Source: Acidobacteriota bacterium (lineage in GTDB: Bacteria; Acidobacteriota; Vicinamibacteria; Vicinamibacterales; UBA2999). From it: 32,666 bases of DNA. Position 1 is the first letter of the stretch. The number at the start of each line of letters is the position of its first letter. Below are positions 2,812-16,882 of this stretch, one piece after another. The stretch is from positions 1-32,666 of the forward strand of contig JAQBVV010000022.1 in NCBI GenBank assembly GCA_027622905.1. The letters run 5' to 3'. A model generated the notes under the pieces. That model worked only from the letters and a program-made list of their open reading frames with translations, did no database searches and was not told the DNA's origin. The position numbers were made by a program, and so were the translations under genes.

Positions 2812-3729
2812 ATGAGAATCTTCCTGACGGGCGCGACCGGCTACGTCGGTTCCACCGTCCTTGATGCGTTGCTCCGTGGTTCTCATGATGTGACGGCCCT
2901 TGTTCGCGATCCCGAAAAGGCTGAGCGACTGTCGTTGCGCGGCGTACATCCGATCCTTGGCGACCTGTCAGCGCCGGCCTCGTACGCAGAGGCGGCCGAA
3001 GCGTGTGACGCCATCGTTCACACTGCGTACGAATCATCGAAGCGCGGACCCCAGATCGATCGTCAGGCAGTGGACGTGTTGCTCGGAGCGGCGATTCGGC
3101 ATGCGTCTCGTGGGCAGGATGTCAGCTTCGTTTACACCTCTGACGCGTGGGTCCTTGGGAACACGACCGGGAAGGCCGCCGAAGACGCTCCAGTTCGTCC
3201 AACGGGGCTCGTGGACTGGCGGCCGGAGCATGAGGAGATCGTCCTGAATGCTGGCCGGGGCCGGATGCTTCGAACGGCTGTCATACGGCCGGGTATTGTC
3301 TACGGAGGGGGTCGCGGGATCATCGCTGACATGCTGAAGAACGCCGCTGATGGCTTGGTCAGGGTCATCGGAGAGGGCCTGAATCATTGGGCCTGCGTGT
3401 ACGACCGGGATCTCGCCGACCTCTACGTCCGGGTGACCACAAGCCCCGACGGATCTGGCGTCTACCACGCTAACGATGAGGCTGACGAGCGGGTCATGGA
3501 CATCGTCGAAGCGATCTCGCGGCAGGCAAAGGTCGAGCCCGACGTGCGGCACGTGCCGATAGAAGAGGCAAGAGCCAAGATGGGGCCCTATGCCGACGCG
3601 CTCGCCTTGAACCAGATCGTGCGCGGGCCTCGGGCACGGGCGCTCGGATGGGCGCCGACGCTTCACTCGGTTGTCGGGAGCGTGTCCCGCCTGCTCGAGG
3701 AGTTCCGTTCCAAACGTGCAGCTGCGTAA
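2812..3729 (+). CDS. NAD-dependent epimerase/dehydratase family protein
   Basis: 305 aa; N-terminal Rossmann motif MRIFLTGATGYVGSTVLDALL; extended-SDR-like composition. Confidence 0.85.
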   Translation: MRIFLTGATGYVGSTVLDALLRGSHDVTALVRDPEKAERLSLRGVHPILGDLSAPASYAEAAEACDAIVHTAYESSKRGPQIDRQAVDVLLGAAIRHASRGQDVSFVYTSDAWVLGNTTGKAAEDAPVRPTGLVDWRPEHEEIVLNAGRGRMLRTAVIRPGIVYGGGRGIIADMLKNAADGLVRVIGEGLNHWACVYDRDLADLYVRVTTSPDGSGVYHANDEADERVMDIVEAISRQAKVEPDVRHVPIEEARAKMGPYADALALNQIVRGPRARALGWAPTLHSVVGSVSRLLEEFRSKRAAA

Positions 3730-3961: not shown

Positions 3962-5116
3962 ATGAACGTCGGATGGAGGCGGGCAATATGGGGTGCGACG
4001 GCAGCGCTGTGCGTCTGCGCGCTGAGCGTGGTGTCGGTTCGGAGCCAGGCTGCGCCGCCGGGGGCGGAGATGGCCGAGACCGTGTTCCAGAACGTCCAGG
4101 TCCTGAAGGGTATTCCCGTGGACGAGTTCATGGACACCATGGGCATGTTTGCTGCCGCCACGACGAAAGACTGCACCGGGTGTCATTCGCCGCAGGTGCT
4201 CACCGACAGCCGGGATGCGTTCGCGGTGGTCACGCCGATGATTCAGCGCGCCCGGCAGATGGTGGTGATGATGAACACCATCAACCGCACCTATTTCGGA
4301 GGGGAGACGAGGGTGACGTGTTACACGTGCCACGCCGCGAAGGACATTCCCGAGTGGGTACCCAATCTCGAAATCCAGTACGGCACTCCTCCGCTTCCGA
4401 ATCCAGACACATTGAGGTTCGTGTCGTTTCCGGACGACGCGGATCAAGTTAACGAACTGTTCGCCAGCTACATCCAGGCACTCGGCGGCGCCCAGGCGGT
4501 GGCGGGCATGACGAGTCTGGTTGCGAGAGGTACATACTCCGGCTGGGACACCTCTCGTTCCCCAGTGCCGGTCGAAATCTTCGCCAGGGCTCCAGGGCAG
4601 ATGACCACGCTGGTCGAGCGTACCGAGGGAACGAACTCCTATGTCTTCGACGGTACCAACTTCTGGTTCGCCGGTGTCGATGCCGCCGTTCCGAACTACA
4701 CGCTGACCTACACGGGCGGGAACCTGTCCGGAGCCCGCGTCGATTCGCAGGTGCTGGTCGCGCCGTCGTTGATTCAGGCGTCCTACGATAGCTGGCAGGT
4801 CAGCGAGGATTTCGTGAACGACGAGCTCGTCACCATTCTGCAGGGGACCAAGGAGGGCGAGACGCCCGTGAACCTGTTCTTCAACGAGGCAGGGCTGCTG
4901 GTTCGGTTGATTCGCTGGGCTGATACGTCTGTCGGCCCGGTACCGACGCAGTTCGATTTTTCTGACTACAGAGCGGTGTCCGGGGTCCAGCGGCCGTACC
5001 GCTGGGTCAAGTCGTGGACGAACAATCAGGCCACGTTCGTGATTGAAGAGTACCAGATGAATGCTGCGGTGCCTGATGCGAGGTTCGCGAGGCCGGAGCC
5101 GGTTGCTCTCAGGTAA
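3962..5116 (+). CDS. Secreted di-heme c-type cytochrome (photosynthetic-reaction-centre cytochrome-like N-terminus) with C-terminal LolA-like domain
   Basis: Signal peptide; two CXXCH motifs (CTGCH, CYTCH); Shine-Dalgarno ggaggg upstream; approx. 250 aa non-heme C-terminal domain. Confidence 0.85.
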   Translation: MNVGWRRAIWGATAALCVCALSVVSVRSQAAPPGAEMAETVFQNVQVLKGIPVDEFMDTMGMFAAATTKDCTGCHSPQVLTDSRDAFAVVTPMIQRARQMVVMMNTINRTYFGGETRVTCYTCHAAKDIPEWVPNLEIQYGTPPLPNPDTLRFVSFPDDADQVNELFASYIQALGGAQAVAGMTSLVARGTYSGWDTSRSPVPVEIFARAPGQMTTLVERTEGTNSYVFDGTNFWFAGVDAAVPNYTLTYTGGNLSGARVDSQVLVAPSLIQASYDSWQVSEDFVNDELVTILQGTKEGETPVNLFFNEAGLLVRLIRWADTSVGPVPTQFDFSDYRAVSGVQRPYRWVKSWTNNQATFVIEEYQMNAAVPDARFARPEPVALR

Positions 5117-5262
5117 TTCTCAGACGAGGACCGCTGGTTTTAGGGCTGGCCTTGGTAGAATCGGGTGGTAGCGACGGTTGGTGACGGAGCTATCGGATGC
5201 GCTTGACTCAGGTGGTGACATTTAGGTAACGTCGCCGCGTATTTGTTGGAGGGTTCGAAATC

Positions 5263-5673
5263 ATGAAGTTCAAAATCGGCGGAGCAGTCGTGTTGTGCGC
5301 GGTGTTCCTGTGGGCAGGTTCGGTGTCTGCGCACCACGCGTTGCAGGCCCAGTTTGATACCGAGAACACCTTGACGTTGGAAGGCACGCTCTCGCGTATC
5401 GAGTGGATCAATCCTCACGCGTATTTCTGGTTTGACGTGACGGACGGATCCGGCGAGACGAAGCAGTGGGGCGCCGAAACGGTTGGTCCCAACGCACTCC
5501 GCTCGGCAGGGTTCCTGCGAGGTCCAGCGTCGTTCAGAATTGGTGAGACGTATACGTTCGAGGGCTTCGCCGCCAGGGACGGCGGGGAGCGAATCTTCAC
5601 CACCGCGATCTCATTCGCCGACGGTCGGAGGATCGACATCTGGATCGGTGAAGAGGGCAACGCCAAGAAGTAA
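5263..5673 (+). CDS. DUF6152-like small secreted protein
   Basis: 136 aa; signal peptide ending SVSAHHALQAQFD; motif LEGTLSRIEWINPHAYFWFDV; SD ggaggg 5' of ATG. Confidence 0.75.
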   Translation: MKFKIGGAVVLCAVFLWAGSVSAHHALQAQFDTENTLTLEGTLSRIEWINPHAYFWFDVTDGSGETKQWGAETVGPNALRSAGFLRGPASFRIGETYTFEGFAARDGGERIFTTAISFADGRRIDIWIGEEGNAKK

Positions 5674-5700
5674 GGCGAAAGCAGTCACGTCGGTATAACG

Positions 5701-5751
5701 CCATCCCATCTCTAGCCCTTGCTGCGAGGGCTAGGGGTACGGGATGGTTTT
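5701..5751 (+). terminator. Long hairpin followed by TTTT (intrinsic terminator or attenuator)
   Basis: ccatccc (5701-5707)/gggatgg (5741-5747) outer stem and ctagccct (5712-5719)/agggctag (5727-5734) inner stem, then tttt. Confidence 0.7.
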
Positions 5752-5789
5752 GCGCGTCGAGCGAGAGTGTCGCGAGGAGTAGTCGAGCC

Positions 5790-6638
5790 ATGAAGCTGAG
5801 GTTCATCGTTGGAAGTGTGTGTGCAGTCACGGCGGCACTCGGGCTTCTGTCTGCGCCCCTTGTCGCCCAGGGTGGAGGCCAGCCGGCCGCTGCTCAGGTT
5901 GAAACGCCACGGGATGCCAACGGGCACCCGGTGCTTACGGGTGTCTGGGCCGGTGGCGGAGGGCTTGGAGCGACGAGAGACGCCTCTGGAAACGCGAACA
6001 TTACGCTGCGCGGCCGGAAAGGCAGCCCGGTGAACTTCGAGCGCGACTCCGGTATCGGGCAGAGGGTGACACCACGGGACGAGCGGCCGTGGTACAGACC
6101 TGAATACTGGGACCGTGTCCAGTTCAACGATGTGCACGGGCACAACAGGCTGGCGCCCGATCCGACGTTCCAGTGCATGCCAGATGGCGTGCCGCGCATC
6201 GGCTTTCCTCGCGAGATCGCGCAGACGAACGAGAACACGCTCGTGTTCCTCTATAACCTGCATCAGCGGCGCATCTACATCGACGGGCGACCCCATCCTC
6301 CGGTCGAAGAGTGGATCGGCACCTGGTTCGGCCACTCGGTCGGGCACTGGGAGGGCGACACGCTGGTTATTTCAACGGTCGATTTCAACGGGCAGGAGTG
6401 GATTGGCTGGCCCGGCTGGTACACCAGTCCGGACAAAGAGGTCATCGAGCGGATCACGCGGGTTGGCAATACGGTGACGTGGGAAGCGACCGTGAACGAC
6501 CCCTCGATGTTCCTGAAGCCCTGGAAGACAGGCCCAATCGTCAGGCAGTTCAACACGGATCCGACGTTTGAGCTCGAGGAGCCCCTGCCGTGTCTGGAGC
6601 GCGACCTGGACAACATGGCCACAAGGGAACGCGGCTAG
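5790..6638 (+). CDS. Secreted conserved protein of unknown function
   Basis: 282 aa; signal peptide; motifs FQCMPDGVPRIGFPREIAQ and PCLERDLDN; SD gagg. Confidence 0.75.
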   Translation: MKLRFIVGSVCAVTAALGLLSAPLVAQGGGQPAAAQVETPRDANGHPVLTGVWAGGGGLGATRDASGNANITLRGRKGSPVNFERDSGIGQRVTPRDERPWYRPEYWDRVQFNDVHGHNRLAPDPTFQCMPDGVPRIGFPREIAQTNENTLVFLYNLHQRRIYIDGRPHPPVEEWIGTWFGHSVGHWEGDTLVISTVDFNGQEWIGWPGWYTSPDKEVIERITRVGNTVTWEATVNDPSMFLKPWKTGPIVRQFNTDPTFELEEPLPCLERDLDNMATRERG

Positions 6639-6671
6639 GTCTGCGTACTTCGAGTTCGAGAGTGTGAGGAG

Positions 6672-7541
6672 ATGAGAATGTACGCAAAGGTGAAGACGCG
6701 CGTTGGAACAATTGGCGTGGTAGCGACGCTGGCTTTGGCGCTCAGCGTGCCGGCGGTGACCGTGCCAACCCTGCAGGCGCAGCAGGCGCCGACGTTGGAA
6801 GAAGCGATGTACAACATGTTCGACAGCATGGGCATGCTCCGTTCCCTGCGTGAAGTGGACATGTTGATGTCGCTGCAGGTGTGGGGCACCGGGACGAGGG
6901 CCGGTGCACCGATGGAGAGCTATTACGCCGAATACTCCTACGAGTTCCCGGCGATGCGCGTTGACGTCACGATGGCCTCCGGTGAGCGCACCATTGAGGT
7001 CGTGAGTGGTGATCAAGGTCTCCATGCGTGGAACGAGATCGGCGAGAGAGGCGGCGGGCTGGTAGATGGCTATGGCAGCGCCGAGCCTGCGATGGACCAG
7101 TTGACAGAGCGATTGTTGGCGTTGTGGCTGAGCCCTGCGGGTGTCGCGAAGGCCGCGGCCGCTGCTGGCGCTCAGACCAACGTGACGATGGAGAACGGTG
7201 CGGTTGTCCTGACCTTTCCGCTGACCGATGGAGAGCCTGAGAACGCAGCATACGTGCAGGTGGGCGACCTGGCCGGGACGACGGTGAAGCTGACCCTCGA
7301 CAACGACAACCGACCGGCGAGAGCCGAGGTGACCTACGGCGGGCAGGCTCACGTGGTGACCTATGCCGAGTATGGCGATCTGAACTGGGACGACTATCAG
7401 GCTGACGTCATCCTGCCGAGGCGCATCGTGGCGACCGTCGGTGGGCAGACTGTGATGGATCTGACCGTCGAGAACACGAACACCTATAATCCGTACGTGC
7501 TGATGCCCGTGCCGGATTCGATCGTGAGCGCGGCGCAGTAA
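6672..7541 (+). CDS. Secreted conserved protein, LolA-like fold suspected
   Basis: 289 aa; signal peptide ending LQAQQAP; C-terminus ILPRRIVATVGGQTVMDLTVENTNTYNPYVLMPVPDSI resembles that of the 3962..5116 protein. Confidence 0.7.
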   Translation: MRMYAKVKTRVGTIGVVATLALALSVPAVTVPTLQAQQAPTLEEAMYNMFDSMGMLRSLREVDMLMSLQVWGTGTRAGAPMESYYAEYSYEFPAMRVDVTMASGERTIEVVSGDQGLHAWNEIGERGGGLVDGYGSAEPAMDQLTERLLALWLSPAGVAKAAAAAGAQTNVTMENGAVVLTFPLTDGEPENAAYVQVGDLAGTTVKLTLDNDNRPARAEVTYGGQAHVVTYAEYGDLNWDDYQADVILPRRIVATVGGQTVMDLTVENTNTYNPYVLMPVPDSIVSAAQ

Positions 7542-7559
7542 GCGCGTTTCGGAGTTTTG

Positions 7560-7600
7560 AAAAGCCGGACAACGACTGCCGAAGTCGTTATCCGGCTTTT
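7560..7600 (+). terminator. Rho-independent terminator ending the 3962..7541 cluster
   Basis: aaaagccgga-c-aacgac [tgccgaa] gtcgtt-a-tccggctttt: 16 bp with a single C/A mismatch, ending in TTTT. Confidence 0.9.
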
Positions 7601-7792
7601 CATTTTGGGCTCATTGTGCCCAGCGCCGCTCGAGTGAGGTCCGCCGTTGAAGTGGGGCCTTGCAGTGTTTCTTCGTCTTTCTGTCGAGCGCCGAGCACGG
7701 GTTTCGGCGCTTTCAGGTTTCGTGTGCTCTGAACCCAGTCTAGAATACGTTCCATTGCCTTCCGGGACACGTCACCTTAGGAGATCGCGACC

Positions 7793-8998
7793 ATGAATCG
7801 ATGGCTACCCGTTGTTGGTGGAGTCAGCATGAACCTGGCGCTCGGCTCGCTGTACGCCTGGAGCGTGTTTGTGGCGCCGCTCGAGCAGGAGTTTGGATGG
7901 AGCAGAACCCAGACCTCGTGGACGTTCACGATTGCCGTGCTGACCTTTGCCGCGTCGTTCATCCTGGCGGGTCGTATCCAAGATATGAGGGGGCCGCGGA
8001 TCTGCGCGACGGTCGGCGGCGTCCTCGTGGGCGTAGGCTTCATTCTTTCGAGCTTCACCACGTCGCTCTGGCAGCTGTACATCTTTTTCGGGCTCATCGT
8101 CGGCCTTGGCAACGGCTTTGGCTACGCCACGCCGGTACCGGTCGCGTCGAAGTGGTTCCCGGACAAGAGGGGACTGGTGGTCGGAATCATGGTCGGCGGC
8201 TACGGCGCCGGCTCGGCGATCTTTGGTCCCGTCGCTGGGTCACTCATCGAGAGTGTGGGATGGCGACCGACGTTTCAGATTCTTGGTGTCCTGTTCTTCA
8301 TCATGGGCATGATTGGCGCGTGGTTGCAGGTGAACCCGCCGGCGGGCTACGTTCCTGATGGTTGGACGCCGCCGCAGACCGGAGCGGCAGCACAGGTGGG
8401 GAAACGCGACTTCCTGCCCTCCGAGATGGTGCGTACCAGCACGTTCGCGTTCCTGTGGGTGGCCTACTGCCTTGGCGTGACCGCCGGATTGATGGTGATC
8501 AGTCAGCTGGTGCCGTTCGCGGGCGAGGCCGGTTTGAGTGCCGCGGCGATTGCGGCACTCTTCACGATTACCGCCGTTGGCAACGGAGGGGGGCGCATCC
8601 TCTCGGGCTGGTTGTCCGACACGCTCGGCCGACTGACGACGCTGCGCGTCATGGTGCTGGTCTCGGCCATCGCGATGCCAGCGCTGTACGCATCCCAGGG
8701 CAGCGTGCTGTTGTTCTACCTGCTCGCGATGCTCGTGTACGCGTGCTACGGCACACAGCTGTCCGTCTTCGCGTCGACGACGGCCGATTTCTTCGGGACA
8801 CGCAACCTGGGCATGAACTACGGGTTGCTGTTCAGTGCCTGGGGTGTCGCTGGTTTTCTTGGTCCCTGGATCGGCGGCCAGGTGTTCGACGCATTCGGCG
8901 ACTACCGTTACGCCTTCTACGCGGGAGCCGCGTTGGCGCTGGTGTCGCTGGGGTCGCTCTCGCTGGCGCGCCCGCCTGCCGAGCCGGCCAAGGCGTAG
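7793..8998 (+). CDS. MFS transporter, OFA (oxalate/formate antiporter) family-like
   Basis: 401 aa, approx. 12 TM segments; MNLALGSLYAWSVFVAPLEQEFGWSRTQTSWTFTI; SD aggag 5' of ATG. Confidence 0.88.
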   Translation: MNRWLPVVGGVSMNLALGSLYAWSVFVAPLEQEFGWSRTQTSWTFTIAVLTFAASFILAGRIQDMRGPRICATVGGVLVGVGFILSSFTTSLWQLYIFFGLIVGLGNGFGYATPVPVASKWFPDKRGLVVGIMVGGYGAGSAIFGPVAGSLIESVGWRPTFQILGVLFFIMGMIGAWLQVNPPAGYVPDGWTPPQTGAAAQVGKRDFLPSEMVRTSTFAFLWVAYCLGVTAGLMVISQLVPFAGEAGLSAAAIAALFTITAVGNGGGRILSGWLSDTLGRLTTLRVMVLVSAIAMPALYASQGSVLLFYLLAMLVYACYGTQLSVFASTTADFFGTRNLGMNYGLLFSAWGVAGFLGPWIGGQVFDAFGDYRYAFYAGAALALVSLGSLSLARPPAEPAKA

Positions 8999-9335
8999 CT
9001 GATCGGTTTCGGGCGGCTCGTCCGGTGCTTGATGGCGCTGGGCGGGCCGCCTGCGCTGTCCTTCGTCCCCGCACGCCGCCCGGTCCTCGGGCGGTCCCGA
9101 ACCCGCTCCCACTCGATTTCGACGGTGGCGACGGGCCTCTGCGCCTTCTCGCGCGTCCAACCAAGCTGCGGAGGGCGTGTGCTGGGAGGTCGGCGCCGGA
9201 ACGGCGCCGATGCCACCGCCCACCGAGAGACGAGCGGTTCTTGGCAGATCCCCCCTCGACGGTGACCCGTCGAGAGGGCAATGGCTATCTGCCGCGGAAA
9301 GGTGACGCGAGGATCCGCGCGCCTGGCGGCCGCGG

Positions 9336-10259
9336 CTACGGTGTCTGGGTCTTTGCCCTGTCGGCTTCCATCCGTCGGCGGAAGTTCGCCTCGCCAGCTT
9401 CCAGGCCACGCGCCCAGTCCCCGGGTGTCTCCAACAGCGGATGCGGGCGCACACCAGCCTTCATCGCGTCGATCTTGCCTTCGAACGCCCCCTGCGGATG
9501 GCCGGGCAGCAGGATGTCTGGATTCAGCAGGCGCAGCTTGCTGAACGTCTCAAGCGTGATTTCTGCAACATCAGGGAAATCGGGATTGCCGACGACGAGT
9601 GGGCCGCCGTTGGGCGTACGGCCTCCCGGGAAGACCACGTTGTAGAAGCGCCCGCCGTCCTCGACGTTGGTGACCCATGTCGTTGCCCCCGGGGTATGAC
9701 CTGCTGTCAACATCGCGCGGAGCGTCGTGCCGCCCAGCGAGACGGTGTCGCCGTCTTCGAGCACGCGCGCCACGGGCGCGGCGGGCCAGTCGTGATACTG
9801 GACCGGCGAGATGTCCATGCCGGATTCGATCGCCTGGGCATCGAGACCCATCGCCATGATGCTGGCGCCCGTCGCCCTCTGCATCTCCGCGTGCCCACCG
9901 ACGTGATCCACATGGGCGTGGCTGGAAATGATGATTTCGATGTCACTGAGCTGGAATCCGAGCGTTTCGATGTTGGTTCGCACGACGTCATGCATCTGAG
10001 GCATGCCCGTGTCGAACAGGATGTGCCCTTCCGGCGTCGTGATCAGATACGACGAGATGTTCTGAGCACCCACGTAGTAAATATTGCCCAGAATCTTGAA
10101 CGGCTCGGCGGGCTCGCTGTACGGTCCCTTGATCGCTGCGTCCTGCTCCGCGCCGACGAATCCTGAGGTTTCGCCGCCGAGATATCCAGGGGTTTGCGCC
10201 GACACCCCGACCACTATCGCTACCGCCGCCACACTCACAACACTTGCCAGTCTTCGCAT
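9336..10259 (-). CDS. Subclass B3-like metallo-beta-lactamase-fold hydrolase
   Basis: Start chosen at MRRLASVVSV (10259), behind SD agggaggg; signal peptide; HAHVDH, GHTPG and LPGHPQG metal ligand motifs. Confidence 0.85.
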   Translation of the reverse strand: MRRLASVVSVAAVAIVVGVSAQTPGYLGGETSGFVGAEQDAAIKGPYSEPAEPFKILGNIYYVGAQNISSYLITTPEGHILFDTGMPQMHDVVRTNIETLGFQLSDIEIIISSHAHVDHVGGHAEMQRATGASIMAMGLDAQAIESGMDISPVQYHDWPAAPVARVLEDGDTVSLGGTTLRAMLTAGHTPGATTWVTNVEDGGRFYNVVFPGGRTPNGGPLVVGNPDFPDVAEITLETFSKLRLLNPDILLPGHPQGAFEGKIDAMKAGVRPHPLLETPGDWARGLEAGEANFRRRMEADRAKTQTP

Positions 10260-10347
10260 GATCCCTCCCTGCTGGACTCTAGCTCGAACCGGGCGCGCGA
10301 TCAACGCCCGGACGCGAGAGGCGCGCCCACACTACAATATCGGCCCT

Positions 10348-11919
10348 ATGGAAATCCCACTGACCCCGATGGAGTTCGCGCACCGAGCCCGGCGCCTGTA
10401 CGCTGACCGCGAGGCTGTCATCGACGGAACGCTCAGGCTGACCTACGGCCAGTTCTTCGATCGCTGTGACCGCTGGTCCGCCGTGCTGCAAAGCCTTGGC
10501 GTGCAGCCTCGAGACCGCGTCGTCTATATCGCGCCGAATACGCACGCGCAACTGGAGTCGTTCTACGCTGTGCCCCAAATCGGGGCGGTACTGGTGCCGC
10601 TGAACTATCGGCTGACGCCAGACGATTTCGCGTACATGATCGAGCACAGTGGCGCGTGCGTCGTCTGCGTCCACGAAGACTACCTGGATGCCGTCGACGG
10701 GATTCGCGATCGGCTGACGGGCGTGCAGCACTTCGTGGCGCTGGAAGGTTCCCGATCCGGCTGGCTCGATTACGAAGCGACGCTCGCCGCGGCGGAGCCG
10801 ACGTTCACTGCGGCGGAGATCAGCGAGCGTGACCTGCTCACGATCAACTACACAAGTGGAACGACGTCGCGGCCGAAGGGCGTGATGATCACCCACCGGA
10901 ACGCGTACATGAACGCGGTCGGGACGCTGATCCATCTGCCGATGACACCGGGCGACCGCTATTTGTGGACGTTGCCGATGTTTCATGCCAACGGGTGGAC
11001 GTTCACCTGGATCGTCACGGCGGTCGGCGCGGCCCACGTGTGCGTGCGAAAGATCGATCCGGTCGCGACGATCCAGCTCATGGCCACGGAATCCGCGACG
11101 ATGCTGTGCGCCGCGCCAACCGTGCTGATCGCACTGGCCAACGCACCTGAAGAGGCCCGGCGACAGGCGCCATCTGGATTGCGAGTGGTGACGGCCGGGG
11201 CGCCGCCTGCCGCGGCGACCATCCAGCGGCTGGAAGGAGACCTTGGCTGGACCGTCACCCAGGTCTACGGCCTCACCGAAACGGCGCCGTTCATCACCGT
11301 CTGCGAGCCGAGACCTGAGCACTCCGCGCTGTCTGTTGAAGCGCGCGCAGGTATCAAGGCGCGACAGGGCGTCGAACTGGTCACGTCCGGCGAACTCCGG
11401 GTCGTGGATGATGAGGGGCGCGACGTGCCGCACGATGGCCAGGCCCTCGGCGAGATCATCGTCCGTGGCAACGTCGTCATGGAGGGTTACTACAACGACC
11501 CACAGGCGACGGCCGCCGCCATTCGGGACGGGTGGTTTCATTCCGGCGACGCGGCCGTCGTGCACGCTGATGGTTACGCGGAGATCCGCGACCGCTTCAA
11601 GGATGTCATTATCAGCGGCGGCGAGAACATCTCATCCGTGGAAGTGGAGGGCGCCCTCATGCGCCACCCGGCGGTGCAGGAGGTTGGCGTGGTCGGCGTG
11701 CCTCACGAGCGCTGGGGTGAGGCCCCTCACGCGTTTGTCGTGCTGAAGCAGGGCGAGACGGCGACCGGGCAAGAGCTGATCGACTTCGCCCGAGACAGCC
11801 TCGCGCATTTCAAGGCGCCCCATGCGGTCACGTTCATCAAGGAATTGCCGAAAACCGCGACCGGGAAGATACAGAAGTACGTTCTCAGAGCTGGCAAAGC
11901 CGCTATCGCTGCGCAGTAG
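10348..11919 (+). CDS. Acyl-CoA synthetase (AMP-forming; fatty-acid/long-chain type)
   Basis: LTINYTSGTTSRPKGVMITHRN, QVYGLTETAP, GWFHSGDAAVVHADGYAEIRDRFKDVIISGGENISSVEVE, KTATGKIQK. ORF track start 10084 rejected; MEIPLTPMEFA at 10348 preferred. Confidence 0.92.
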   Translation: MEIPLTPMEFAHRARRLYADREAVIDGTLRLTYGQFFDRCDRWSAVLQSLGVQPRDRVVYIAPNTHAQLESFYAVPQIGAVLVPLNYRLTPDDFAYMIEHSGACVVCVHEDYLDAVDGIRDRLTGVQHFVALEGSRSGWLDYEATLAAAEPTFTAAEISERDLLTINYTSGTTSRPKGVMITHRNAYMNAVGTLIHLPMTPGDRYLWTLPMFHANGWTFTWIVTAVGAAHVCVRKIDPVATIQLMATESATMLCAAPTVLIALANAPEEARRQAPSGLRVVTAGAPPAAATIQRLEGDLGWTVTQVYGLTETAPFITVCEPRPEHSALSVEARAGIKARQGVELVTSGELRVVDDEGRDVPHDGQALGEIIVRGNVVMEGYYNDPQATAAAIRDGWFHSGDAAVVHADGYAEIRDRFKDVIISGGENISSVEVEGALMRHPAVQEVGVVGVPHERWGEAPHAFVVLKQGETATGQELIDFARDSLAHFKAPHAVTFIKELPKTATGKIQKYVLRAGKAAIAAQ

Positions 11920-11958
11920 TCGATCCCTGGATGCTCCCCAGGACGGCCGTCACGCTGA

Positions 11959-12735
11959 CTACCCGGCTACGAGCGCTGGCAGGTCCGTCACCGCGCGAAT
12001 GATGTGAGCCGCCGGGAAGCCCAGTTCCTCCTGCGGTTCAGCGGCATTTCGCTGGATCCAGAACGTCGTCAAGCCGGCAGATCCGGCGCCCGCGATGTCC
12101 CACGAATTGGACGAAACGAAGCCGATGCCGCTCTGTGGTCCAGGCAGGTGCTTCTGGATGAGGCCGTAGACTTCCGGCTTCGGCTTGAAGACCTTGATGT
12201 CCTCGATGCTGATGATGTCGTCCAGAATCGTGTCGATACCCGCGCTTGCGGCGGCAGCCTGGAGCATCTTGGGCTCGCCGTTTGACATGATGGCGACCCG
12301 GAGCCCTGCCTGTTTCAGCGCCTCAAGTCCTGGCTTGACGTCAGGGAACGCCGTGAGGGTCAGATAGGCGTCCATGAGCCGCTGACGCTTGGCTGTCGTC
12401 AAGTCCAGTCCAAGGCTCTTGGCGGCGTAGACAAGGCCGTCCTCGGTCACTTGCCAGAATGTGGCGTGCCGACCCATCAAGCTGCGCAGGGTGCTGTATT
12501 GCAGCTGCTTGGCGCGCCAAAGTTGTGTCAGCGGCGCCCCCTGCCCAGGGAAGAGCTCTTCAGACAGCGCGCCCACCGAGTACACGTCGAACAGGGTTCC
12601 GTAGGCGTCAAATGCCAGCGTCGTGATGCCAGTTGGTCGCGCCGACTGTGCCCCGAGGCCGAGCGGAGAGGCGATTCTGGCTGCGGCCGCCGCACCGCCC
12701 ACTACTTTCACGAATTCCCGTCGAGTTGTCATCAT
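11959..12735 (-). CDS. Haloacid dehalogenase type II-like (HAD superfamily) with Tat-type signal
   Basis: MMTTRREFVKVVGGAAAAA leader; LAFDAYGTLFDVYSV, IMSNGEPKML, KVFKPKPEVY, FVSSNSWDIAGA motifs; start at 12735. Confidence 0.85.
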   Translation of the reverse strand: MMTTRREFVKVVGGAAAAARIASPLGLGAQSARPTGITTLAFDAYGTLFDVYSVGALSEELFPGQGAPLTQLWRAKQLQYSTLRSLMGRHATFWQVTEDGLVYAAKSLGLDLTTAKRQRLMDAYLTLTAFPDVKPGLEALKQAGLRVAIMSNGEPKMLQAAAASAGIDTILDDIISIEDIKVFKPKPEVYGLIQKHLPGPQSGIGFVSSNSWDIAGAGSAGLTTFWIQRNAAEPQEELGFPAAHIIRAVTDLPALVAG

Positions 12736-12901
12736 GCGGTCCCCTGAGGTGATTGGTGGCGAGCCCAAAAGCTATCACAGGCCGACGTGGTGGACCAGGC
12801 TGGCTCTGGCGGCAGACCGGAGCCGCCGGGACCGCTCCACATGTAAACACTCCTGCGGCCGCTGACGTAGGATTTACTGTTGGGCGGCGGACCGATCTTC
12901 A

Positions 12902-15163
12902 GTGGGTCCTCGCTCCCTCACGCTACTTTTCACGCTGCTTTTACTGAGAATCTTCTTTCATGCCGAATTCCCGATTGATGCCGTTTGGGCGGTGATCTGC
13001 ACCACATTATTATTATTCCTGGTCGCCGGAATGGCGCCCTCTGTTCTGGCGCAGGAGCCTGATGGTGAGCGTCCCACATTTGGTGAGCGGCCCATAGGGA
13101 CTGCCGGCCGGGTCGCCGACGCCCCCGTCATCGACGGCGTGCTCGACGATCGCGCCTGGGAGGGCGCAGAGGTGCTCAGTGGCTTCACGCAGTCCGAGCC
13201 GTTCCAGGGCCAGCCTGCTTCCCTGAACACCGACGTGCGGATCGTGTACGACGACGAAGCGCTGTATGTCTCAGCCGTGATGCACGACAGCGACCCGTCC
13301 CGGATCGTCACAACCGACACGCGGCGGGATTCCAGTCTGAACGACATGGATTCGTTCCAGATCATTCTGGACACGTACCACGACCAGCAGAATGGCTCCG
13401 TGTTCGGCACCAACGCTGCCGGCGTCCAGTACGACGCGCAGGTACGCAATCAGGGCAGAGCCGAAGACAGCTGGGACGGCAGCTGGGACGTGATGACCAG
13501 CGTCACCGAGACGGGATGGTCTGCCGAGTTTCGGATTCCCCTGCGCACGCTGCGCTACGGCCCGGCGCCGCAGACCTGGGGCGTGAACTTCCAGCGAAAC
13601 ATCCAGCGCACCCGCGAGCGGACTTACTGGGCGCCCATCCCGCAGGTATTCGATCTTGAACGCTTGTCCTCGGCCGGCGAGCTGCGCAATCTCGCGCTGC
13701 AGGCCCCGCGAAATTTCAAGGTCCTGCCCTACGTGGTCAGTTCCGCGAACCGCAGCTTCGGTCAGGGAGCTACGACGGGGTATAACGGCGACATCGGCTT
13801 CGACGCCAAGTTCGGCATCACGCCCAGCCTCAACCTGGATGCGACCTACAACACCGACTTCGCCCAGGTCGAGGTGGATAACGAGCAGATCAATCTCACG
13901 CGGTTCAATTTGCGCTTTCCAGAGAAGCGGCCGTTCTTCCTGGAGAACTCTGGTCTGTTCAGGGTCGGCAAGGGCAATGAGCTGGATCTCTTCTTCAGCC
14001 GCAGAATCGGTATCAGCGACGGCGGCCTCGTGCCGATCATCGGCGGCGGCCGTCTGAGCGGCAAGGTCAGCGGCGTGAATGTGGGTGTCCTCAACATGCA
14101 GACCGATGCGGTCGGCAGCACGCCGGGCAACAACTACTCGGTGCTGCGGGCGAGTCGCGAGGTACGGGGCCGGTCGGGGTTCGGGTTCATGTTCGTCAAC
14201 CGCGCGGGGACCGGATCGTTCGCTCAGTCGGACGATTGGAACCGGACGTGGGCCGGCGACGCGCGACTTGGGCTCGGCGAGGCTTTCACGACATCGGGTT
14301 TCATCGCGCGCACGGAAACGCCGGGGCGTGCGGGACGTGCCTACGCCTACAACATTGATACGGGCTGGGACGACGGCCAGCACAGCGCGCGGGTTGAGTA
14401 TGGCGTGACGGGTGAGGCGTTCAATCCCGAGGTGGGCTTCGTACAAAAGACCGGCGGCTATCGTCGCTACGCGATTCGACTCCAGGAGACGATGAGACAG
14501 GACGCCATCCGGGCGCTCGGCTTCCGGGAGTTTCTTCCGCACGTCAACTACACTCGCTACGAGAACATTGACGGTGGTCTGCTCACCGCCGATCTGCACG
14601 TGGACAATCACTGGGACTGGGAGAACGGCAACTTCTTTTCGGTGGCGCTGAACGGTTCCTGGGAGGGTGTGAGCGAGCCGTTCGAGGTGTATCCAGGCAT
14701 CATCGTACCTGTGGGCGACCACGGCGGCCTGAGCGCCGGGATACGGCTGAACAGCGACGTACGCAAGCCGGTCTCCGGCCGTGTGCAGTGGGACATCGGC
14801 CGGTTCCTCAACGGCGATGAGAGTAGTCCCCGGTTGACGGTGCTGCTCCGCGACAGCGGGCGGCTGTCGGTCGACACGACCTGGACGCACAGGTCGATCA
14901 CGCTTCCACAGGGGGCGTTTCGCACGAACCTTGGAAACATGCGCGTGACCTACAATTTCACGCCGTCCGTGTTCGTCCAGAGCTTGCTGCAGTACAACGA
15001 TCGGTCGGAGCGATGGTCGACGAATCTGCGATTCCACTGGCTGGAGACCGCCGGGACTGGCCTGTTCGTGGTCTACAACGATACGGAAAGCCTGAACGGG
15101 CTCGGTCCCGTCAACCGCGTGTTCGTCGTGAAGTATGTCAGGCAGTTCGACCTGCTGAACTAG
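12902..15163 (+). CDS. CBM9-like N-domain plus DUF5916-type outer-membrane beta-barrel protein
   Basis: APVIDGVLDDRAWEGAEVLSGFTQSEPFQGQPASLNTDVRIVYDDEALYVSA; barrel-like C-terminus (FVVKYVRQFDLLN). Exact start uncertain. Confidence 0.85.
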   Translation: MGPRSLTLLFTLLLLRIFFHAEFPIDAVWAVICTTLLLFLVAGMAPSVLAQEPDGERPTFGERPIGTAGRVADAPVIDGVLDDRAWEGAEVLSGFTQSEPFQGQPASLNTDVRIVYDDEALYVSAVMHDSDPSRIVTTDTRRDSSLNDMDSFQIILDTYHDQQNGSVFGTNAAGVQYDAQVRNQGRAEDSWDGSWDVMTSVTETGWSAEFRIPLRTLRYGPAPQTWGVNFQRNIQRTRERTYWAPIPQVFDLERLSSAGELRNLALQAPRNFKVLPYVVSSANRSFGQGATTGYNGDIGFDAKFGITPSLNLDATYNTDFAQVEVDNEQINLTRFNLRFPEKRPFFLENSGLFRVGKGNELDLFFSRRIGISDGGLVPIIGGGRLSGKVSGVNVGVLNMQTDAVGSTPGNNYSVLRASREVRGRSGFGFMFVNRAGTGSFAQSDDWNRTWAGDARLGLGEAFTTSGFIARTETPGRAGRAYAYNIDTGWDDGQHSARVEYGVTGEAFNPEVGFVQKTGGYRRYAIRLQETMRQDAIRALGFREFLPHVNYTRYENIDGGLLTADLHVDNHWDWENGNFFSVALNGSWEGVSEPFEVYPGIIVPVGDHGGLSAGIRLNSDVRKPVSGRVQWDIGRFLNGDESSPRLTVLLRDSGRLSVDTTWTHRSITLPQGAFRTNLGNMRVTYNFTPSVFVQSLLQYNDRSERWSTNLRFHWLETAGTGLFVVYNDTESLNGLGPVNRVFVVKYVRQFDLLN

Positions 15164-15203: not shown

Positions 15204-16882
15204 CCTGCATTATTCACAAGCGCGCGTGAATCGGTAGAAACACAAACGCCTCCACGTGGTACAAAGCCGTTACCACACCACGAGCTTTTTTCCACGGGAG
15301 GCGCCTGCGTTGAACGAGCCGACGATAACACAGACTGTTCTGTTTCCAGACCTGGCGGATCGCCCCCTGCTCGCCAGCTTTGAGCAGCCCCACGCCAGCT
15401 CGGACGGCGGGGCGATCTTGCTCAAAGCCGCCGACCGCCAACTGGGTCTGCTGGCCGCCTTGACCGCGACAGTCCCCGATGCGCGCGCGGCGGCGCGCGT
15501 GACGCACGGTGTCGGCGATCTGATCGCGCAGCGCGTCTTTGCGATCGCCTGTGGGCATCCCGACGGCAATGATGCGGACCGCCTGGCGGACGATCCGATC
15601 CACAAACTGCTGCTGGGGCGCGACCCGATCGCCGGCGGCCGCTTGGCGTCGCAGCCGACGATCTCGCGCTTCGAGCACACGGCCGCCCCGCGGAGGCTGC
15701 TCGCCATGAGCCACGCGCTCGCCGACACGGTCATTGCCCGGCATCGCCGCCGGCGACGCGGCGTCCGCCGCATCACGATTGATCTCGATGTCACCGAGGA
15801 CCAGACGCATGGGGCACAGCAGCTCACCTTCTTCAATGGCTTCTACGATCACTGGTGCTATCTGCCGCTCGTGGCGACGCTGACCTTTGACGACGAAGCG
15901 CGGCAATACCTCGTCGCCGCGATCCTCCGTCCCGGCAACGCGGCGGGGACGGCCGGCGCGGTGAGCCTGCTGCAGCGGCTGCTCCCGAAACTCCGGCGCG
16001 CGTTTTCGGGCGCCCGGCTCCGCGTCCGGCTCGATGGCGGCTTTGCCACTCCGGCCGTCTTCGCCTTCTTGGAGGCCGCCGGAGTCGAGTATGTCGTCGC
16101 CATGGCGGGGAACGCGGTCCTCGCGCGACATGCCGAGCCGTCGCTGGCGCCGCTCCGCGCGGTCGTCGCGACCACGCAGGAGACGGCGACGACCTATGCG
16201 GAGGGGGTCTATCAAGCGGGCACCTGGGCGGCGCCTCGGCGCACAATCATCAAAGCCGAAGTGGTGTGGCACCACGGGCGGGCGCCCCGGGATAACCCGC
16301 GCTTTGTCATCACGAATCTGCGCCAGACGCCCCAATGGATCTACACCCACGTCTACTGTCCCCGTGGTGACAGTGAGAATCGCCTCAAGGAACTGAAACT
16401 CGCCCTGGCCTTTGGGCGCACCAGTTGCACGCGCTTCTGGGCCAATCAATTGCGCATCACCTTGACGGCGGCGGCGTTCATCCTGTTTCAAGAGCTGCAA
16501 CTACGTGCGGACCGGACCGCCCTCCGCGGCGCGCAGGTCCCGCGGCTGCGGCAGGCGCTGATCACGATCGGAGTGCAGGTCGTGCGCTCCGTCCGCCGGA
16601 TCGTCCTGCATCTCCCGCGATCCCATCCCGACGCCGTCCCGTGGGCGCGCCTAGCCCGCGCGCTCGGCGCCGTGTCCGCGTAACGCACTCGCACGCGTCC
16701 CCCACGAGTCCTCGCGCCGGAGGTGTCGCCGCCGACGTGCCGATCCCATCCCACGCGTCCGTGGCCTGACGCGTCAGGCCGTCAGACCGCCGCCGTCGTC
16801 AGTCAGCCACCGCCCATCAGCGGCGCAGACACTCGGGGCCGCCGCCAGGATCAGAAACTCGCTCACTCGTGAATAATGCAGG
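15204..16882 (+). mobile_element. Complete IS1380-family insertion sequence, approx. 1679 bp
   Basis: Perfect terminal IRs CCTGCATTATTCAC (15204-15217) and GTGAATAATGCAGG (16869-16882), flanked by CTAG on both sides (15200-15203, 16883-16886), enclosing an intact transposase. Confidence 0.92.
15310..16683 (+). CDS. IS1380-family transposase (apparently intact)
   Basis: TTG start behind gggagg SD (GTG at 15256 is the alternative); IDLDVTEDQTHGAQ, VRLDGGFATPAVFAFLEAAGVEYVVAMAGN, CPRGDSENRLKELKLALAFGRTSCTRFWANQLR. Confidence 0.93.
   Translation: MNEPTITQTVLFPDLADRPLLASFEQPHASSDGGAILLKAADRQLGLLAALTATVPDARAAARVTHGVGDLIAQRVFAIACGHPDGNDADRLADDPIHKLLLGRDPIAGGRLASQPTISRFEHTAAPRRLLAMSHALADTVIARHRRRRRGVRRITIDLDVTEDQTHGAQQLTFFNGFYDHWCYLPLVATLTFDDEARQYLVAAILRPGNAAGTAGAVSLLQRLLPKLRRAFSGARLRVRLDGGFATPAVFAFLEAAGVEYVVAMAGNAVLARHAEPSLAPLRAVVATTQETATTYAEGVYQAGTWAAPRRTIIKAEVVWHHGRAPRDNPRFVITNLRQTPQWIYTHVYCPRGDSENRLKELKLALAFGRTSCTRFWANQLRITLTAAAFILFQELQLRADRTALRGAQVPRLRQALITIGVQVVRSVRRIVLHLPRSHPDAVPWARLARALGAVSA

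Follow-up and report, generated by a model that had tools for sequence, protein, structure and literature searches.

The four genes considered here lie on the forward strand of a 32,666-nucleotide stretch (the window) of contig JAQBVV010000022.1 from an Acidobacteriota bacterium; they encode, in order, a di-heme c-type cytochrome (CYT), a DUF6152 protein, a protein of an unnamed family (P3) and a protein predicted to have a LolA-type fold (P4), and the set recurs as a cassette in the same genome and in related ones (Table 1). The first-pass annotation, made from the sequence of the window, had described four consecutive genes with signal peptides and Shine-Dalgarno (SD) sites, closed by a strong terminator. 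All four open reading frames (ORFs) are found as described; each protein starts with an Ala-rich leader, basic and hydrophobic, that as judged by eye looks like a signal peptide for export, each gene has a purine-rich SD-like stretch on its 5' side, and the closing hairpin is real.

Table 1. Features of the cassette, its flanks and its further copies in the host genome; positions are those of the window
Feature	Position	Strand	Basis
CYT, di-heme c-type cytochrome, 384 amino acids (aa)	3962..5116	+	ORF, PF02276, PDB sequence matches, C-terminal domain model
First heme site CTGCH, residues 71-75	4172..4186	+	Sequence
Second heme site CYTCH, residues 120-124	4319..4333	+	Sequence
Predicted LolA-fold domain of CYT, residues 160-378	4439..5095	+	AlphaFold predicted local distance difference test (pLDDT) blocks mostly 76-95; Foldseek
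DUF6152 protein, 136 aa	5263..5673	+	PF19649, 67.7 bits (gathering cut-off 27)
His24-His25 codons, directly after predicted signal-peptidase site (VSA/HH, cut at the slash)	5332..5337	+	Conservation, -3/-1 rule
His52 codon, (N)PH motif	5416..5418	+	Conservation
Hairpin between DUF6152 and P3 genes, then TTTT	5700..5748	+	-36.2 kcal/mol, z = -4.46
P3, unnamed family, 282 aa	5790..6638	+	ORF; natural P4::P3 fusions in related genomes
P4, predicted LolA-fold protein	6678..7541 (earlier start 6672)	+	ORF; fold via homologous fusion protein L040
Terminator-type hairpin closing the cassette	7559..7601	+	-35 kcal/mol, z = -6.57
SDR/epimerase-family gene, upstream	2812..3729	+	PF01370; homologue also flanks a cassette locus in L072
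MFS transporter, L-lactate/oxalate-formate type, downstream	7793..8998	+	NF049980, 433 bits (cut-off 320)
Cassette copy C219: P4-DUF6152-P3-CYT
Cassette copy C231: P4-DUF6152-P3-CYT-CYT
Cassette copies C84 and C52: P4-DUF6152-P3
Cassette copy C18: P3-P4

CYT contains the two CXXCH motifs noticed in the first-pass annotation. Residues 23-132 match PF02276 with 54.5 bits, and the PDB sequence matches of CYT are reaction-centre cytochrome subunits throughout (7c9r_C, E 9.9e-14). In the alignment with PufC this region corresponds to the first pair of hemes, and the Met that precedes the first heme is shared: Met60, which falls at the PufC 'TM' position, is invariant in CYT paralogues, as is Met100, located before the second heme. 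Unlike PufC, which is a tetraheme protein with four CXXCH motifs, CYT has two, and its second half is instead a domain predicted to have a LolA fold; CYT falls under the cut-offs for both PufC (NF040706; 57.3 bits versus 150) and the NF033196 'c-type cytochrome' model (c_type_nonphoto; 49.0 bits versus 70). Foldseek places the LolA-superfamily protein NE2245, LolA and LolB at the top for the C-terminal domain (prob 1.00), with 51 matches at E <= 0.001 of which those to the LolA superfamily are best. Sequence and model together indicate that CYT combines one half of a reaction-centre cytochrome of the PufC type with a LolA-type domain, an architecture that is new for a cytochrome.

P4 has no meaningful match in Pfam, NCBIfam or PHROG and no sequence relatives in the PDB; its fold is taken from the model of a fusion protein at locus L040, in which P4 and P3 are joined, window P4 being ~36-41% identical to the P4 halves of such fusions. 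The model of the P4 half of the L040 protein is good, and Foldseek matches it to LprG and LolB (prob 1.00). LprG and LolB are binders of lipids or lipoproteins. It had been proposed, from a likeness of the two protein ends, that the C-terminal domain of CYT shares a fold with the fourth protein, with structure prediction named as a check. The likeness itself is weak when taken alone, as direct comparison of P4 and CYT profiles from shallow alignments (six and eight sequences) gave a probability of 2%, a value that is uninformative because of that shallowness; deeper sets and an intermediate, the metallo-beta-lactamase (MBL)-fold proteins, reversed the outcome. With deeper profiles in hhalign P4 matches the N-terminal domain of the MBL proteins at 100%, this domain matches the C-terminal half of CYT at 97%, and a pooled P4 and MBL profile matches that half at 94%, while one reversed and five column-shuffled decoys reach at most 0.8%. 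The shared fold is borne out by both approaches and is predicted to be LolA-type; the C-terminal half of CYT and P4 are homologous through the N-terminal domain of the MBL proteins. These proteins (~500 aa, e.g. L024:998-2530) resemble P4 in this LolA-like domain, whereas P4 is free-standing and has no hydrolase domain; in L024:998-2530 and in the MBL-fold proteins of L051-L068, Pfam names the hydrolase half only.

The fold predicted for P4 and for the C-terminal domain of CYT is like that of LolA, LolB and LppX-LprG; however, identity is only ~8-14%, there is no Pfam LolA match, and the domain is found here inside a cytochrome or beside P3 and DUF6152. Among the recurring cassette neighbours, no Lol partners were recognised. 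The fold could be taken to mean that P4 and the LolA domain of CYT handle envelope lipids or lipoproteins, as specialised Lol/LppX-type carriers of a lipid, hopanoid, quinone or lipoprotein, the heme unit being a redox sensor or acting on a lipid quinone. This is quite unlikely; LolA, LolB and LprG are indeed the best fold matches, but many diverged copies beside substrate-uptake genes suit nutrient use over housekeeping lipid transport, and lipid-synthesis genes were not seen repeatedly among the neighbours of the cassettes.

P3, initially listed as a conserved unknown, proves to be an unnamed family that recurs in and beyond the host genome, and has no meaningful match in Pfam, NCBIfam, PHROG or the PDB. 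A relationship of P3 to either LolA-type domain is ruled out by profile comparison (0.1%). The P3 half of the L040 fusion is modelled partly at low confidence and has no significant Foldseek match. P4 and P3 occur as one in-frame ORF in three loci (L032:1225-2970, L040:3987-5789 and the second P4/P3 ORF of L069); the L040 fusion is a 601 aa protein containing a signal peptide, P4 and P3 in that order, and at least two of the three fusions are clearly divergent from one another.

The host genome of 3.4 Mb contains 25 P3-type matches and 25 DUF6152 genes; its full-length CYT genes number 8, that of the window among them, with one further weak match to the heme part only, and P4 is present at full length in six places and also as fragments. 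Five more cassette copies, complete or partial, exist besides that of the window. Each of the 6 full-length P4 genes adjoins a P3 relative, where the chance of a P3 gene within 4 kb is estimated at ~0.065 per P4 from the 25 P3 genes and the genome size; DUF6152 adjoins 5/6 and CYT 3/6. Among 84,980 species genomes scanned, 12 loci were found, every one of them in a metagenome-assembled genome with the title Acidobacteria or Candidatus Sulfopaludibacter, and all four genes are present in 8, three genes in 3 and P4 alone in 1; the window order CYT-DUF6152-P3-P4 is also seen in L029 and L030. The P4 model matches 27 of 59 relatives' whole genomes, many merely via the related MBL-protein domain. 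When partners within 4 kb of 32 distinct P4 genes are counted, P3 is found near 28, DUF6152 near 28 and CYT near 14 (the latter two always on the same strand), along with TonB-dependent receptors (14), DUF6351 (6), SDF carriers (5) and DUF6644 pairs (4). The parts diverge in a correlated manner (P4/P3 r = 0.82, P4/CYT r = 0.72; 0/2000 permutations), and this extends to paralogues within a genome (P4/P3 r = 0.70; 14/2000 permutations).

Based on this co-occurrence, the correlated divergence and the P4::P3 single ORFs, the cassette is a functional unit and not a product of chance. The first-pass annotation had named co-occurrence in other genomes as a check on a four-gene module; the four genes do occur together elsewhere, although the form seen in the window is one of a variable cassette in which the order differs and CYT is often absent. 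It is highly improbable that the genes are chance neighbours, or that their order is purely inherited within a lineage without joint function: the gene set is restricted (P4 at E <= 1e-20 in 5 of 297 genomes sampled over the phylum), as such inheritance would have it, but gene orders vary, several copies per genome sit in different surroundings, P4 and P3 are fused in frame three times and within-genome paralogues diverge in step. No description of a cytochrome-LolA-fold cassette was found.

Partial or broken copies are also seen, such as P4 in L021 (G000:C191) at 3019-3466, which has an in-frame TAA, and P3 in L009:9998-10222; these represent either cassette turnover or assembly edges. The contig of L016 (G000:C234) carries six P3-type and two DUF6152 genes at 6215-13759 without P4 or CYT.

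The TonB-dependent receptors that recur near the cassettes carry a carboxypeptidase-regulatory domain; further recurring neighbours are tannase-like DUF6351 proteins, SDF, MatC/CitMHS and DASS carriers, DUF6644 membrane pairs and GlcE/GlcF-type genes, and a true Tannase gene adjoins the L011 locus. The cassette is tentatively read, with a probability of roughly 0.35, as a periplasmic system, linked to TonB, in which a lipophilic or ester substrate is bound and processed by oxidation and electrons are delivered to the di-heme unit. The substrate, lipophilic or ester-linked, would enter via the TonB-dependent receptor that adjoins other cassette copies and would be trimmed by the tannase-like esterases. 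P4 would act as a carrier of the LolA fold whose ligand pocket is presumably hydrophobic; together with P3, sometimes in one polypeptide, it may hold the substrate and pass it to the LolA domain of CYT. Electrons from the oxidation of substrate in the periplasm could then leave via the two CYT hemes to the respiratory chain, while the part of DUF6152 would be to hold or provide a metal, probably copper, at an exposed N-terminal histidine; the transporters beside the cassettes may take up organic-acid products. We infer the hydrophobic ligand, the electron direction, the metal and the substrate, and the periplasmic redox or lipophilic-substrate role suggested in the first pass is to be taken in the same way.

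Several points weigh against this proposal. The heme half of CYT is poorly modelled (AlphaFold pLDDT < 50), and the geometry between pocket and heme is not given by the model; neither a fold nor catalytic residues are recognised in P3; and the window copy has no adjoining TonB receptor or esterase. CYT is absent from over half of the cassette copies, so the core of DUF6152, P3 and P4 must work without it. The ligand, metal, heme and activity assigned to the cassette are predictions.

The product of the second gene, described at first as DUF6152-like, is placed in that family by its Pfam score. Among 80 DUF6152 sequences His24 is conserved in 80/80, His25 in 79/80, Pro51 and His52 in 79/80 and Ala23 in 77/80. 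A site obeying the -3/-1 signal-peptidase rule lies before the His, behind a hydrophobic stretch, in 78/78 scorable sequences; mature DUF6152 should therefore start with histidine, given the predicted cleavage. Seven Sphingomonadales copies display the same histidine pattern; the one from plasmid Mpl of Novosphingobium sp. PP1Y (L147:11611-12339) has a Tat-like RRAFLK leader before HH, the others being Sec-type. Histidine-brace proteins bind copper through the amine and imidazole of an N-terminal His plus a second His (PMC10952591), and a comparable pattern led to the recognition of YcnI (DUF1775) as a copper protein (PMC8424229). DUF6152 resembles such proteins (CopC, YcnI/DUF1775, lytic polysaccharide monooxygenases) in having a His at its predicted mature N-terminus and a second conserved His, His52, which is a candidate ligand. 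DUF6152 was rejected as a homologue of CopC (PF04234), as the hhalign match (62%) runs via the signal peptide only and there is no Pfam CopC match. Because no CopC homology extends beyond the signal peptide, a copper histidine-brace is put forward as a predicted function of DUF6152 and not as family membership. Among the papers searched, none deals with DUF6152 or DUF6644, and DUF6351 received one passing mention.

DUF6152, P3-like genes, DUF6644 pairs and/or TonB receptors are also found together in Novosphingobium, Croceibacterium and Sphingobium. The Sphingomonadales plasmid loci with DUF6152 (PF19649) and DUF6644 (PF20349) share the DUF6152-P3-like core of the cassette but lack P4 and CYT. 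The simplest reading is that of an old secreted DUF6152-P3 core, later extended in the acidobacterial line by LolA-fold carriers, one of which is joined to half a reaction-centre cytochrome.

The main rival to substrate oxidation is copper or metallophore acquisition, in which the TonB receptor imports a metal or its complex, DUF6152 is a periplasmic copper carrier with a histidine site at its N-terminus, in the manner of CopC and YcnI, the inner-membrane partner is the DUF6644 pair, reduction of the metal falls to the cytochrome, and P4 and P3 bind the complex. The N-terminal His-His and Pro-His of DUF6152, retained in Sphingomonadales and similar to the YcnI/DUF1775 pattern, the grouping of genes in the Sphingomonadales loci and the one invariant His of DUF6644 near its N-terminal hydrophobic stretch favor such a role; it is nonetheless unlikely, as ~25 DUF6152 and 25 P3-like genes in 3.4 Mb are far above the need for metal uptake, the genes nearby encode esterases, organic-acid carriers and catabolic proteins of the CoA-ligase type, the match to CopC is confined to the signal peptide and the DUF6644-CopD profile link reaches only E = 0.4. 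A bolder reading is likewise unlikely: DUF6152 would form a new copper family of the histidine-brace kind and the cassette would be a copper-heme machine of the periplasm, in which lipophilic substrates are brought by LolA-fold carriers to a copper/P3 site, the half-reaction-centre cytochrome moves the electrons, and each duplicated copy serves one substrate.

Acidobacteriota are abundant in soil, and much of their secreted catabolism is annotated as 'hypothetical protein'. The ~25 DUF6152 and ~25 P3-type genes of one genome here partly resolve into repeated, testable cassettes; for DUF6152, which is curated as a family but has no assigned function, there is now a specific prediction in the form of an N-terminal His metal site.

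Within the window, translation of P4 most likely starts at ATG 6678 rather than ATG 6672, because GAGGAG (6666-6671) abuts the latter but lies 6 nt before the former. The hairpin between the DUF6152 and P3 genes is a single copy in the genome, and thus not a dispersed repeat; it is possibly an attenuator or processing site. Since this strong hairpin with its TTTT sits between genes 2 and 3, a single transcript over genes 1-4 is plausible only. Further downstream, the ORF at 15256-16683 resembles an IS1380-type transposase by eye, which suggests that the window was open to insertion in the past, and a haloacid-dehalogenase-like protein at 11959-12768 has a Tat-type leader (TRREFVKVVGGAAAAA) and, as judged by eye, is probably exported.

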